DNA of 64,000 bases from Auricularia sp. M13 (Eukaryota > Basidiomycota > Agaricomycetes > Auriculariales > Auriculariaceae): contig CM073197.1 of assembly GCA_037042915.1 (NCBI GenBank), forward strand, positions 1,054,001-1,118,000, read 5' to 3'. Positions 32,241 through 55,343 of the stretch are shown here, piece after piece (position 1 is the first letter of the stretch; every line of letters begins with the position of its first letter). The notes under the pieces are model-generated. The model was not told where the DNA came from and searched no databases. It saw only the letters and a program-made list of their open reading frames with translations. The translations under genes and the position numbers were made by a program.

Positions 32241-33348
32241 GTGCTGTAGCTGTAGGGGTTCGTCCGGGGCTTGCCTTGTGCCATGGCGCGCGACAGATCG
32301 GTTGCTCAGCGCAGCGCTCGCTATGATGATGTATATCGCAACTTTGCATAGATGTGTAACATTACTTCCACACGTGCGACCATTGGACAAAGGTCCCGGC
32401 GTCACTTGAACAAAGTCTGTGAGCTGGCGCTTGGAGCGTCTGGAATTTGCTGGAGATGGGGGTGTGTTATGTCATCCCCGTTCTACTGTTCAATGCATCG
32501 TATCTATCGTGGCTGGCCAGGGCCTGTCAGTGAATTCTTGCAGGCGCAATTGACAGTACTGTCTTTGGGTTGCGCAGATTTCGCAATCGGAAGACACTGG
32601 CAGGTGCGGTCGTATGTTGTTGCAGCGTCTGCGATTGGAAGGTCTGGATTGCTCCGGGCTCCTGGCAGGTGCGCGATAGGCAAGGGCGGGATGACACGTG
32701 AGAGGCAGCGTGCGGAGTGGAGGATGAGGTGCTACTGCTGGCCGCTGGACCACCAGGTTGGGTTGAATGGCGTGCCGAGTTGAGAAGACGTCTTGGCCGG
32801 AGGACGTCGGACAAGGTGTGAGTACATGATACATACGGTCTCGAGCATGCAGCAGCCAGAGAGGGCTGCGTGTGGTTCTGATCTGCTGCTGGGTGATGGA
32901 CAACTTGTAGCGCATGTGGGCATGGTACGGTTCTTGTTCAGATGGGAGGCCAACACCATACTGTACTAACTCGCTCTCTAACATCGAACAATCAACGAAC
33001 AGCCATTTGGATGCTGAGATTATCATTTAGGAGTTGTGTAATAGCTACCCTGGCGGTGTGAGGAGTAAGGTGGCGGGCATGCCAGGATTTTGCACGGCGT
33101 GCCTGGAGGTGAACAGAACTGAGCCGTGTTCGGGATGGATCCATGGCATCAGCTGGACGGGATAAGTCTACTGTAACTTAACTGGCGGGGGGCGTGACAG
33201 GGCCAACACTGCGGCCACAGCCGGGGCAGGAGTAAGTGCAGCCGTGCTCCGCCGCGTTCCTGATGGGCAGTGGGTCCGTCATAAAAGTCGTCCCGAAGCA
33301 TCTTTGCTTGCCTCCTGACTTCCCCTGCCTGTCCTCATACTCGCCGCC
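32241..33348. other. Intergenic region upstream of the repeat-peptide gene
   Basis: About 1.1 kb without a recognisable gene. Minus-strand open frames at 32490-33026 have no motif. The right end holds the promoter of the secreted repeat precursor, with a TATA-like element. Confidence 0.5.
33281..33287 (+). promoter_or_regulatory. TATA-like element of the repeat-peptide gene
   Basis: The sequence ATAAAAG lies 68 bases before the ATG at 33349, followed by a pyrimidine-rich leader. The spacing fits a fungal TATA element driving a regulated gene. This is inference from position and sequence. Confidence 0.5.
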
Positions 33349-34042
33349 ATGAAGCTGCAACCCATTGCCCTCGTGCTCTCCGTCGCCCTCGCCTACGCCG
33401 CCCCTGTGAGCCCCTCAACGCGCCCCCCGCCCGCCAAGCCTTGCTTATCGCCGTCTCAGGTCGTCCCCCCGCAGGACGAGCAGCTCGCACGCCGCGTATC
33501 AGACTGGCGCCGCTCGGACGAGGTGCGTTGGCCTCTCCTCGGACTGCGATCTGTGCTCAGTTCAGTTGCTGCAGGCACGGCGAGCGACACCTGACATCGA
33601 AGCCGTGCGTTTTTATCGATCCCGTTTTGGGGGGCAGGCATGCTCACCGTCTTCGCAGCGGGTATCAGACTGGAAGCGTGACGACGTTGAGGCTCGTGAG
33701 CCCGTGTCGGACTGGAAACGCGACGACGTAGAGGCCCGCGAAGCCCAGCCAGTATCAGACTGGAAACGCGAGCCAGAGCCAGAGCCCGTCTCCGACTGGA
33801 AGCGCAGGCCCGTGTCCGACTGGAAACGCGTTTCGGACTGGAAGCGCGTATCGGACTGGAAGCGGGACGACGTCGCTGCCCGCGAGCCCGTCAGCGACTG
33901 GAAGCGCACGCCGGTATCAGACTGGAAGCGGGTGTCGGACTGGAAGCGCTCAGAGTCGCCCGTCGAGGTGTGTTCTAGCTGCTTGCACACAAACGCAAAT
34001 GCCCGGCACTGATCGCTCCCCGTTTAGGCTCGCGACTCGTGA
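33349..34042 (+). CDS. Secreted Kex2-processed repeat peptide precursor (VSDWKR repeats)
   Basis: Exons 33349-33405, 33460-33522, 33575-33604, 33659-33967 and 34028-34042 join in phase 0 to 157 residues. A signal peptide (MKLQPIALVLSVALAYAA) is followed by a short pro-region and eleven copies of VSDW(K/R)R: one as VSDWRR in exon 2 and ten as VSDWKR in exon 4. Every copy ends in a dibasic KR/RR, the cleavage signal of the Golgi protease Kex2. Spacers are acidic (DDVEARE, DDVAARE) or X-Pro pairs (EPEPEP, RP, TP, QP), which dipeptidyl aminopeptidases of the Ste13 type can trim. Three junctions have copies directly abutting. Expected products are VSDWKR, trimmed to VSDWK or VSDW by a Kex1-like carboxypeptidase. 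There is no C-terminal CaaX, so it is not a classical basidiomycete lipopeptide pheromone. Function is unknown; a signalling or RiPP-type peptide is plausible. Confidence 0.85.
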
Positions 34043-42090: not shown

Positions 42091-45000
42091 ATGTCGCGAC
42101 GACCGCAGACGTCGGCGTCGGGGCGCCCGATGACGGCGGCCTCCGCGCTCAGCGAGCCGCAGTCCCTGTTCTGGCAACCCGGGACGGGCCAGCAGCACCA
42201 GCAGCAGCCCATATACGAGGACCAGGACGAGGAATACGAGAGCAGCGACGAGGAGGACGTCTTCGCGTACCTGCCGCCAGCCTCTGCTGGCTCCCACCAC
42301 AGCTCGGAGCCACCGTCAACACCGGCCTATGCTCAGCCGCCGCCGACAGCAAATTCACTACAGCCACCGCCGAGCCGGTTCGCGACCGGAAAGCAGTCGT
42401 TGCAGTCTATACCAGAAGACGACGACAGCAACGTCGCGCCAGGAACCACCTCCAGCGACGCCCACGTCGGCGCTGCTGTGGGCGGCGACGCCTACCGGAT
42501 GTCGCGGATGGGTCTTTCGACGCAGGCATCCAATGACACGTCCAGCAGAGAGGTCCATGTCTCGCTACCTTCCCGGGGCAGCGAAATACCAGAGTTCAAG
42601 CGTATCAGCTCGGACATGGGCTCGAGCGTTGTCGACGGCGCCGACTTTGAGAACCTCAAGTGCGTGACTTGGCTTGCGACCCGCAATCAAATACCAATGC
42701 GCACCTGCAGGAATCACCACTACGATGCAGAGTCTGAGATTGACGAAGACTCGCCCTTCCCTGAGGTTCGTACCTGACATTTCGTCACGAAGCCCTCGCT
42801 TAGCACTTTATTTAAACTTATCTCAGGTTCGCGCGTCGGTTTCGAACATCGACGACGTAACCATGCCCGCGTACGTACTCGTAGCACAAAACGCTTGGGG
42901 CGGTGTTGAAAGTGTCTTTCCAGTATGACCTTTCGAATGTGGACACTGGGAATGACACTCTGCATCGTGGCCAGCGGCGCCAACATATTCTTCAATTTCC
43001 GGCAACCTTCACCACAAATCGTCCCCCTCGTTCTTCTGTACGTTCTGGTCGTACTCCTTCCGCAACTGTCATTCTTCGCTCTGGCGATGCGGGTGTCGCA
43101 GCCCGTGCATTGACGCGCGGTGCCGCTTTACACCCAGAATGGCACTTCTGGACCCGCTGCCATCCTCTTCCTCTCCCACAGCTGACAGCCTGCGCTCCCA
43201 AACAGGCTGATATCGTACCCGGCTGGAAGACTCATGGCTTACTCGCTGCCAATACGAGTTATGAAGTTTCCCCGGTGGTTAGGAGGCTTCGAGTTCTCGC
43301 TCAACCCGGGCCCTTTTAACATGAAAGTACGCATCAAAATAATTCAGAAAGTCTCATAGTCTAAACAACTCCACTTGCAGGAACATGTCTTGATTTACAT
43401 CATGGCAAATGGTGGGTCACGGAACCAAGTGCAACACGCAACTATTGACACTTATTGCCCCGCACAGTCTCGATTGTCCCTGCTTACGGCTTAACTGCTA
43501 TCGTGGTTGCCGAGGTTTTCTACGACATGAAGAGAGGTTACTGGTACGCGTTTATCCCATAAACGCGGTAAGCATGGTGTAACCCGGGTTTGTAGGTTTG
43601 CGCTCGTCCTCGTCCTCGCGACGCAATTGACCGGGTTCGGGCTCGCCGGTCTTTGTCGTCGATTCCTGGTTTGGCCAGCGAGCATGATCTGGCCGCAGAA
43701 TCTCGTTGCCTGCACATTGCTCAACACGCTCCACGCGGAGGATGACAAGCTTAGCGGTGGAATAACGCGATTCCGGTTTTTCATGTTTGCTTTCGTGGGA
43801 ACGTTCTTTTTCTTTTTTCTCCCTGGGTACCTCTTCTCCGCCCTCTCCACGTTTTCGTGGGTCTGCTGGATCGCGCCCAGTAAGTCCGTTCGGGAAGAGT
43901 TGATATACTTGAAGCTCATCATGGCGCAGATAACATCGTCGTTAACCAGCTTTTTGGCGTTCAAAGCGGTCTTGGCCTCGGCTTCCTCACGTTCGACTGG
44001 TCGCAGATTACGTGGATTGGTAGCCCGCTCATGGTGCCATGGTGGGCCGAGTTGCACGTCTTTACTGGCTTCGTCATCTTCTATTGCATCGCGTGTCCGA
44101 TCCTGTACTACACGAACGTGAGTTTCTTTCATACCGGACCAGGATCGCGGGACTGACCGTGAGGACCAGGTGTGGAACATGGCCTACTTCCCGATGCTGT
44201 CCAACATCCCGTACGACAGGTTCGGCAACCAGTACAACATCAACCTCGTCCTGGGGCCAGACCACAAGCTCAATATCACCGCGTACGACGAATACTCAAC
44301 GCTGTACATGCCCGCCGGATGGGTTATGACCTATTTCCTGGCGTTTGCGGTGTCGACCAGCGTTATTGTCCATACTGTCCTCTACCACGGCGAGTCGATG
44401 CTTAACGGCATCAAGAACATGCGAGTCGAGAAGGACGACATCCATGCTAAGCTCATGAGGAGCTATCCCGAGGTGCCTGATTGGTGGTATGCGATCGTGT
44501 TCGTCGTGTTCTTTGCTCTGGCAATTGTTGCGGTGGAGGTGCGGTAGTCTTTTACTCGACTTCGAATTGACATGCTTACTCACGCCCGACAGCACTGGGA
44601 TACTGGCGTTCCTGTCTGGGCCCTCCTGCTTGCACTCATTATCGCCATCCTTTACACGTTACCTGGCGGCTTTATTTTTGCACTGACAGGGCAAACTGTG
44701 CGTAGAAGTCCAAATTTACGACATGCACGCCCGACTGAAGGTTCTTCGCGCAGATCACTCTGAATCAGGTCGCGCAAATCATCCCGGGGACGCTGTTGCC
44801 CGGCAATGCCTTCGCGAACATGGTCCGTCGGCGGTGTGCGCGAACCGTGTGCTCAGCGCTCACCCCAGTTCTAGATCTTCAAGGTGTACGCCATCCAGAC
44901 GCAAATAGAAGCCATCAACTTCGTGCAGGATCTGAAACTAGGTCTGCACTTCGTCGCTCGGCGGGCGCCAGCCTCTGACGCTCGAATAACCCGTAACAGG

Positions 45001-45895
45001 TCACTACATCAAGGTTCCGCCGAGGGCTACCTTCATTGGTATGTCGGAAGAATGTTGGTGACGCGAGCATGGCTGACCATCTACGCAGTCCAATCGACCG
45101 CCACTATTATCGCATCATTTGTTCAGGTTTCTGTCAAGACGTGGCTTTTCAGCAACGTGGAGCACATATGCGACCCGCACCAGCCTGACTCGTTCACCTG
45201 CCCGCATAACCAAGTGTTTTACACGGCGTCTATGATCTGGTGCGCAGTTCACGAGCTGTACATGCTCGTTCACGCATGCTAAAACGTGTGCGACACGGCA
45301 GGGGTCTGATTGGACCAGGCCGCCAATTCGGCAATGGGTCCATTTACCATCCCGAGCTGTACGCACTGGCCTTTGGTGCAATCCTGCCGATACCGTTCTG
45401 GTTATGGCAGCGCAAGTTTCCGCAGTCGCGGCTCAAGTACGTGAGCATCCCGGTCATTGTGAACGGCGTCAGTCAGATACCGCCTGCAACTGGGGTAAGT
45501 GTCTGGTCCCACTGCTGAAGCGTGTGCTGCGGATGGCTGATTCTTTGTGGTACAGATAAACTACAGCAGCTGGTTTATCGTTGCGTTCGTCTTCCAGTAC
45601 CTTGTGCGCCGGCGAAGGTTCGCCTGGTGGAGCAAGTACAATTACGTGCTGTCCGCCGCACTCGACTCAGGGACGGTTGTGGCCATTCTGGTCATATTCT
45701 TCTGCCTTCAGTTCCCGAAAGGAATCAACCAACCCCAATGGTGGGGCACGACCGTGTTCAAAAACAGTACGTGCTTGTCCCCTTTGTCCCCTCGACTAGC
45801 GAGTTCGGTTGAGCTAACGGGCGTTTTGCACAACAGCGGCCGACTGGAAAAGGTTACCACTGCGACAAGCCCCGCCGGAGGGCCTCAAGGACTAG
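42091..45895 (+). CDS. OPT-family oligopeptide transporter
   Basis: OPT proteins import small peptides, glutathione or metal chelates with protons across the plasma membrane. The ATG at 42091 begins a long acidic and Ser/Pro-rich cytosolic N-terminus. The family signature SPFPEVRASVSNIDDVTMPA then precedes the first span (FRMWTLGMTLCIVASGANIF). Later landmarks are LISYPAGRLMAYSLP, the NPG motif in FSLNPGPFNMKEHVLIYIMA, TFDWSQITWIGSPL, VWNMAYFPMLSNIPYDRFGN, NAFANM, INFVQDLKLGHYIKVPPRAT, CDPHQPDSFTCPHNQVFYTA and PPATGINYSSWFIVAFVFQY. It ends RLPLRQAPPEGLKD at 45895, a usual OPT C-terminus. More than a dozen short introns all splice in frame, and I see no break. About 14-16 spans are expected. 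Confidence 0.93.
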
Positions 45896-54354: not shown

Positions 54355-55343
54355 ATGAAGTACCTCCCTCTCCTCGTCGCGGCTGCCGGACTGGCCACCA
54401 GCGCCGCAGCATCTCCCGCTGCCAGTGACAACTTTACGCTCTCCGCCAGACAGGATCCAGACGACCTCATGATCTTCGTCTGCGACCAGATGCCCGAAGT
54501 CTGCCACAACATGTGCTATGGTATGGTAACGTCCTCGTCGGCGGACTTGTTTGGCTTACACACTATCGGCAGGCGCGTTCTGCCTCAACATCGGCCAGGG
54601 GCTCACGTACGACAAGCCCAGCGCGAGCGACAAGCGCAACCGCCGCAAGGCCGCGGGCTGCATCGCGTCCGGCGGCAACCGCTGCTCGACGAAGAAGGGC
54701 CACGACGCGGGCTTCCAGTGCGACGAGTATCCGTTCGCCAGCACCGTGCCGACCGGCGATGTCGCCGACCGCGTGAACCGCTGCGTCCCCGCGGGAGAGA
54801 ACCGGAGTGAGTGCACCGCGCCCTTCAGCGCTGAAGCTGACGCCATCCCTGTCATATAGAGCAGGGCGGCATCATCAACGCCTTCTACCGCGCGGCATTC
54901 TGCGGCGGCGGGCCGTGCACGTTCAGCGTGGAGTTCTCCAACGCGGGGAACATCGACATGTGCGACGCTGTGGACGACCAGAGCCAAGTGCGACGACGAC
55001 GACAACGAAGTCGTCGGCCCAGGCAGCGGCACTCCCGCGCAAGACGGCGACGAGGCAGATGACGGCACGGACGACGACGGTGGCAACCCCGAGCCCGAGA
55101 AGAAGAAGAAAAGCGCACTTCCACGACACGCCACAGGTACCTCACGAGCTCCGGCGTCGAGATCGATATCCGCGGAGGTCGCATCGGTCAGCGGACGGTC
55201 ATCGTGCTGCCCGCAACGCCACCCTGTGGGACGAGCAGGCCAACAACCACGTCTTCGACCCGGATGACGAAGACAGCGAATACGACTACATGCTGCCGAA
55301 CCTGGACGTGCGCGACGACATCATCGTCGCAGAGCTCTCGTAG
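54355..55343 (+). CDS. Secreted NucA/NucB-type deoxyribonuclease, copy 2
   Basis: Paralogue of the gene at 52119. The signal peptide MKYLPLLVAAAGLATSAAAS is followed by DPDDLMIFVCDQMPEVCHNM. After an intron the core reads DKRNRRKAAGCIASGG, NRCSTKKGHDAGFQCDEYPF and ASTVPTGDVADRVNRCVPAG, so the CDEYPFAS motif is kept. The next exon gives GGIINAFYRAAFCGGGPCTF and NAGNIDMCDAV. An acidic segment with GTDDDGGNPEPE and the ending LPNLDVRDDIIVAELS at 55343 follow. Intron positions match copy 1. The frame is disturbed at a few places in the C-terminal half, more than in copy 1. Either this copy is decaying or the region is poorly called. The tandem arrangement suggests an expanding secreted-enzyme family. 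Confidence 0.8.

Follow-up and report, generated by a model that had tools for sequence, protein, structure and literature searches.

The window analysed here is a 64,000-nucleotide stretch of an Auricularia sp. M13 contig (C5), and it carries on its plus strand a complete gene model spanning 33349-34042, with an ATG at 33349 and a TGA ending at 34042, in agreement with the start and end that an earlier note had given for a repeat precursor. The splice model was read from the sequence alone and comprises five exons, each starting in phase 0, and four introns that all have GT-AG borders and measure 69 (or 54), 52, 54 and 60 nt. Exon 1 (33349-33405) carries the signal-peptide-like MKLQPIALVLSVALAYAAP, exon 2 (33475-33522, with 33460 as an alternative start) encodes DEQLARR-VSDWRR-SDE, exon 3 (33575-33604) ARRATPDIEA, exon 4 (33659-33967) ten VSDWKR units together with XA/XP dipeptides and spacers of the DDVEAR/DDVAAR kind, and exon 5 (34028-34042) ARDS and the stop codon. 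The encoded precursor has 152 aa, or 157 aa if intron 1 is 54 nt long and exon 2 begins at 33460, which adds five residues. Judged by eye, the N-terminus resembles a signal peptide, MKLQPIALVLSVALAYA, with AP after the putative cut and Ala at -3 and -1, and the tail is short (SESPVEARDS). A basidiomycete a-type pheromone has a C-terminal CaaX box and no signal peptide, a layout to which the signal-like start, the absence of Cys and the EARDS end do not correspond, and a Pfam scan of the precursor found nothing significant (best E 0.14). A TATA-like box, CATAAAAG, lies on the plus strand at 33280-33287, some 68 nt ahead of the ATG, and TATAAAA is also found 60-100 nt upstream of the ATG in two other precursors of the genome, named GTPGW and RYSAY after their cores; in all three cases this is a resemblance only. 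Two other open frames were set aside, one on the minus strand (33613-33990, with FQSDT repeats), which is the antisense of the VSDW repeats, and one that reads through intron 3 (33566-34012), which the spliced model supersedes.

The neighbourhood was scanned with Pfam in six frames from 34.1 to 44 kb, on the plus strand from 23.4 to 33.3 kb and from 44 to 54 kb, and in 29 selected open reading frames of the window. On the plus strand, a gene for a Myb-type DNA-binding protein (near 24 kb) and a WD40-repeat gene (about 30.8-32.1 kb) lie upstream, and a purine/cytosine permease (about 39.6-40.2 kb) followed by an OPT oligopeptide transporter (43195-45708) lie downstream. Two NucA/NucB-type nuclease matches stand close together on the plus strand, at about 52.4 kb and 54530-54856, and the window also has a match to DUF6535, an Agaricomycete family; together with two STE3-type receptor loci elsewhere in the genome, this match suits a mushroom-forming basidiomycete.

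Repeat units and the selection acting on them

Eleven VSDW[KR]R units are present in the spliced product, as the earlier note had counted, each with a dibasic end. Unit 1 is a VSDWRR in exon 2 (33496-33513), and units 2 to 11 are VSDWKR, located on the same plus strand at 33662-33679, 33704-33721, 33752-33769, 33788-33805, 33812-33829, 33830-33847, 33848-33865, 33890-33907, 33914-33931 and 33932-33949. These units give the precursor the repeat layout of a KEX2-processed repeat protein (KEP), a class defined in part by at least three near-identical motifs separated by KR, RR or KK. A degenerate VSDWKR DNA pattern, which does not cover the VSDWRR of unit 1, had 11 forward matches in the 52.1-Mb genome, ten of them inside the precursor gene, and no reverse match, and the same pattern written backwards as a control gave no forward and one reverse match.

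Across the units, four different codons serve Val, four Ser (AGC included), two Lys and three the final Arg, and only one of the 66 residues differs. Across the 55 unit pairs the per-site differences are pS 0.63 and pN 0.061, the non-synonymous part being put down to the one Lys-to-Arg replacement and to the TCN and AGC serine codons, which cannot be interconverted without a non-synonymous step. Because synonymous sites differ this much and residues hardly at all, the repeats are old enough for synonymous drift and yet are held to one peptide.

These figures bear on whether the locus might be an unexpressed relic or a chance repeat. Such a reading could draw on the gene model being a prediction from sequence, and on the roughly 5 kb downstream of the gene (34.1-39.6 kb), in which six scanned frames gave no Pfam match. 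It is nevertheless very improbable, since the frame is open through five exons, the synonymous difference among units is ten-fold above the non-synonymous one, and similarly laid-out sister genes occur in the same genome.

Spacers, proteases and the predicted product

Each VSDW either follows its basic site directly or is separated from it by X-Pro/X-Ala dipeptides only. Extensions of this kind precede six of the eleven copies (EP twice, EAQP, RP, TP, and EPEPEP at 33770-33787, plus strand); three of the six, namely EP, EAQP and EP, come after a single Arg, and RP comes after KR. X-Pro and X-Ala dipeptides are the substrate of Ste13, which trims alpha-factor as a dipeptidyl aminopeptidase (PMC6339444, PMC9769878). 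With a single Arg counted as a basic site, the rule of a basic site followed by X-Ala/X-Pro or nothing fits all ten inner spacers, four of which are empty and so pass for free. When spacer residues were shuffled, a score of 10/10 was reached in 5 of 100,000 trials and the commonest score was 5/10, a descriptive figure, as the rule was framed after sight of the sequence. With dibasic sites alone as starting points 7/11 copies are clean, and with single basic residues admitted as well all eleven are; the other four require monobasic cleavage, at the Arg of IEAR, VEAR (twice) and VAAR. Products of Coprinopsis precursors expressed in Pichia were apparently also cut after a single Arg (PMC9769878). 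The Kex2-processed, alpha-factor-style layout proposed by the earlier note fits, and the Ste13-type dipeptides, which that note had missed, make it better founded than claimed there.

The same dipeptides weigh on the idea of a structural repeat protein comparable to the Rep1 surface peptides of Ustilago, in which the repeat itself and not a freed tetrapeptide would matter. The secreted repeat layout is compatible with such a protein, and Rep1 is likewise processed by Kex2 (PMC9769878), but pieces of just a few residues would be very short to build a surface fibril, Ste13-type dipeptides would be without reason, and the Rep1 precursor is described as lacking a Ste13 signature (PMC6339444), which makes a structural role most unlikely. 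One PDB sequence, 7rdr, 'Circular tendon repeat protein', matched over the whole sequence (E 2.7e-10); the best stretch covers residues 11-32, no single stretch passes, and the match is judged to be most likely a summed effect of repeat and composition and not kinship. Searches of a viral contig collection (seven pattern matches) and of a prokaryote genome collection (46 pattern matches), where a mushroom gene is not expected, confirmed no relative in either.

Enzymes suited to this processing are encoded in the genome, in numbers that the search gives as lower bounds. At least two Kex2-like loci on C4 combine a proprotein-convertase P domain with an adjoining S8 subtilase domain, and for Coprinopsis three kex2 genes are reported (PMC9769878). 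At least one Ste13-like locus, on C8, has DPPIV_N and peptidase S9 domains, and upstream of them a strongly hydrophobic segment is encoded, which would suit a type II membrane peptidase resembling Ste13.

It is therefore probable, and held with good confidence, that the gene encodes a KEP of the alpha-pheromone-like type with a Ste13 signature that is known in Agaricomycetes, processed by Kex2, Ste13 and Kex1 into a linear, secreted VSDW. The precursor would enter the secretory pathway, where a Kex2-type protease would cut after KR or RR, and probably also after the single Arg of IEAR, VEAR and VAAR. A Ste13-type membrane dipeptidyl aminopeptidase would then take off the X-Pro/X-Ala dipeptides and a presumed Kex1 enzyme the C-terminal KR, so that up to eleven linear VSDW tetrapeptides could be secreted per precursor and might act outside the cell, in self-signalling or in dealings with other organisms. 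Expression of the gene, actual cleavage of the precursor and linearity of the product are what we infer from this arrangement. The predicted product is identical for all eleven copies, the tetrapeptide VSDW, with a computed [M+H]+ of 506.2245. The corresponding computed values are 634.3195 for VSDWK and 732.3199 for an untrimmed EPVSDW, and, for cores of other precursors in the genome, 517.2405 for GTPGW, 777.3930 for VVYHPY and 772.3988 for IRYSAY. The earlier note had left the choice between VSDW and VSDWK open; VSDW is the likely form and VSDWK the less likely one, because Kex1 normally trims basic residues (PMC9769878) and two sister precursors stop at the final aromatic residue.

Kex2 sites flanking a short core that contains an aromatic side chain would also suit a dikaritin-type RiPP precursor, in which UstYa-family oxidases would cyclise VSDW in the manner of the tetrapeptide core of ustiloxin, an option that the earlier note had listed. 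The genome contains 16 UstYa matches, and in one survey a UstYa neighbour was found for 22% of the KEPs resembling the basidiomycete alpha-pheromone-like set (PMC7329392). However, the matches are located on C8 (12), C4 (2) and C2 (2), none of the 16 on the contig of the VSDW gene, no UstYa appeared in the frames and open reading frames of the neighbourhood scans, and cyclic tetrapeptide precursors are reportedly without a Ste13 signature (PMC6339444). The option thus finds no local support, and a dikaritin-type fate for VSDW is quite unlikely. The UstYa matches themselves, at 1.64-2.53 Mb on C8, 0.414 Mb on C4 and 0.814 Mb on C2, are in many cases paired or in triplets, and these groups are possible dikaritin-type clusters; in the loci of about 3 kb around eight of the 16 matches no repeat precursor was flagged.

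Since the precursor follows an alpha-factor-like grammar, it could also be read as an ascomycete alpha-type mating pheromone acting through a Ste2-type receptor, Ste2 being the kind of receptor that ascomycete alpha-factor uses. The genome-wide search returned no STE2 match, a search without any control match from which absence does not follow, and the two STE3-type receptor loci are both on C7, a contig other than that of the VSDW gene. Moreover, a core of 4 aa contrasts with the 9-24 aa of ascomycete alpha pheromones (PMC6339444), and a mating role of this kind is extremely improbable.

Sister precursors in the same genome

Further precursors were sought with four DNA patterns and one protein query, followed by the reading of loci from a set of 91. 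With part of the pattern matches examined, at least three further precursors were found, which brings the whole set to at least four. The two WKR-pair patterns were little or not enriched as such (39 matches against 41 in the control, and 37 against 23), with loci cut out around 30/39 and 30/37 of the matches and the remainder seen as short matched strings only. The KR-[DE][AP]-[DE][AP] pattern had 58 matches in the genome against 30 in the control, and its two clusters, on C5 and C3, were followed. Five identical matches of this pattern, spaced about 9.5 kb apart on the minus strand of C1 (7806035-7844055), form a tandem array that is perhaps ribosomal DNA. Outside its own gene, the VSDW precursor used as protein query gave E 1.09 at C5:1522523, where reading the locus revealed no repeat precursor, and E 8.19 at the RYSAY gene, which was recognised by reading and not by score.

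The RYSAY precursor (C5:1632180-1633143, ATG at 1632180, about 544 kb from the VSDW gene) has 304 aa and 14 copies of [I/L/V/M]RYSAY preceded by EPEPEP-type dipeptides, ends with RYSAY directly before the stop codon and, on its sequence, is a canonical alpha-factor-like precursor. A third, likewise alpha-factor-like precursor lies on the minus strand of C3, from an ATG at 2026742 down to about 2026004; it has 227 aa and ten VVYHPY copies, mostly with DPEPEP-type dipeptides, and continues for about 40 residues past the core with no stop there. Its start (MLA...AAPIA) and the phase of its intron 1 resemble those of the RYSAY precursor. From dibasic sites, the Ste13 rule leaves 10/14 RYSAY and 8/10 VVYHPY copies clean, a stronger pattern than that of the VSDW precursor. 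The GTPGW precursor (C7:3519579-3519827, ATG at 3519579, 64 aa, four copies, ending GTPGW-stop) lacks the Ste13 pattern, one of its four copies being clean and that one having no extension. The GTPGW and RYSAY precursors end on the Trp or Tyr of their last core, which argues for an aromatic residue at the mature C-terminus. The missing Ste13 pattern of the GTPGW precursor and the run-on end of the VVYHPY precursor count against the proposed reading. A common ancestry of the four precursors would be no more than a possibility, the VSDW query having reached the RYSAY gene at E 8.19 only.

The OPT gene, about 9.2 kb downstream of the VSDW gene with the purine permease in between, was considered as a functional partner, as OPT transporters import tetra- and pentapeptides. 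In a genome-wide OPT search (91 stretches, with 71 of 80 candidates scored), no match stood beside the GTPGW, RYSAY or VVYHPY precursors: C7 had none, and on C3 and C5 the nearest lay more than 500 kb off. The link was dropped and the adjacency treated as chance, the other three precursors having no OPT gene nearby.

Possible role and relation to known systems

The earlier note had regarded an alpha-factor-like layout as unexpected in a basidiomycete, a point already in print. Le Marquer et al. 2019 named the KEP class, stated this very surprise and gave a section to alpha-pheromone-type KEPs in Basidiomycota (PMC6339444), KEPs were surveyed across 1461 strains in 2020 (PMC7329392), and peptidomics by Vogt et al. 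2022 found peptides of this type in Agaricomycetes (PMC9769878). Mating in basidiomycetes is described as relying on lipidated a-type pheromones only, and yet many of these fungi carry alpha-factor-style precursors (PMC6339444, PMC9769878). The role of KEP peptides is viewed in two ways, the authors of PMC9769878 leaning towards interaction with other organisms and Le Marquer et al. towards self-perceived hormones, with effectors allowed (PMC6339444). Deletion of six Coprinopsis KEP genes had no visible phenotype, and none of five bacterial strains was inhibited by the synthetic KEP peptides tried (PMC9769878).

A more specific idea, offered tentatively and rather doubtful at present, is that VSDW is an endogenous tetrapeptide hormone of a mushroom-forming fungus, made by an alpha-factor machinery that basidiomycetes would have kept despite mating pheromones of the other type, and perceived by a receptor other than Ste2. 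If it were true, VSDW, GTPGW, RYSAY and VVYHPY would form a small vocabulary of aromatic-ended signals. The VSDW gene is an unusually clean case, given a core of four residues in eleven copies, a defined exact mass and no fewer than three sister precursors, and what KEP peptides do becomes easy to test here by means of synthetic peptides and gene deletions.

The core VSDWK was absent from the open literature searched, and supplementary tables of the KEP surveys may already list VSDW. A wider search for the VSDW motif showed no fungal peptide by title among the matches listed, and a search for the RYSAY and GTPGW strings likewise showed no such precursor by title among the matches listed. Reported KEP motifs range from three to 352 aa (PMC6339444), and non-repeat GH128 proteins are mentioned as having stretches of four residues between Kex2 sites (PMC9769878); the peptides that PMC9769878 describes as detected in basidiomycetes are longer than the VSDW core, which still falls inside the reported KEP range.

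Among known systems, the ascomycete MF(ALPHA)1-type alpha-factor precursors resemble the VSDW precursor in their KR sites, their EA/DA or XP dipeptides and a repeated core, as well as in a signal peptide, which is putative for VSDW, and differ in their longer cores (the 9-24 aa class) and mating role (PMC6339444). Dikaritin precursors such as that of ustiloxin share short cores split by Kex2, whereas their products are cyclised, DUF3328/UstYa proteins are needed, and no Ste13 signature is reported for them (PMC7329392, PMC9769878). The mushroom precursors described in PMC9769878, whose authors note a C-terminal Trp in many basidiomycete KEPs, offer further likenesses. SGVAADW, MSGVAADW and SGTGEASAADW were detected in Pleurotus and Lentinula, and such -AADW-ending peptides from fruiting bodies provide a precedent for the proposed processing. 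The Pleurotus ostreatus KEP 1091723 and P. eryngii KEP 1439342 are likewise basidiomycete precursors with Kex2 sites, Ste13 XA/XP dipeptides and a core in -DW, although their cores, MSGVAADW and SGVAADW, have 7-8 aa against 4 and the shared -DW is a resemblance only. The Lentinula edodes KEP 2599, from fruiting bodies, also repeats a core in -DW (SGTGEASAADW, seven times), but this core has 11 aa, and it is for the Pleurotus precursors, not for this one, that Ste13 motifs are described in the text consulted. The Coprinopsis cinerea KEP 490115 shares the C-terminal Trp and the Ste13 motif and differs in its 7-aa cores, QYKAPSW and QMRPPSW, and their N-terminal pyroglutamate. The VSDW precursor is thus a clear new member of a class already on record from mushrooms, in which its four-residue core and the set of four genes stand out.
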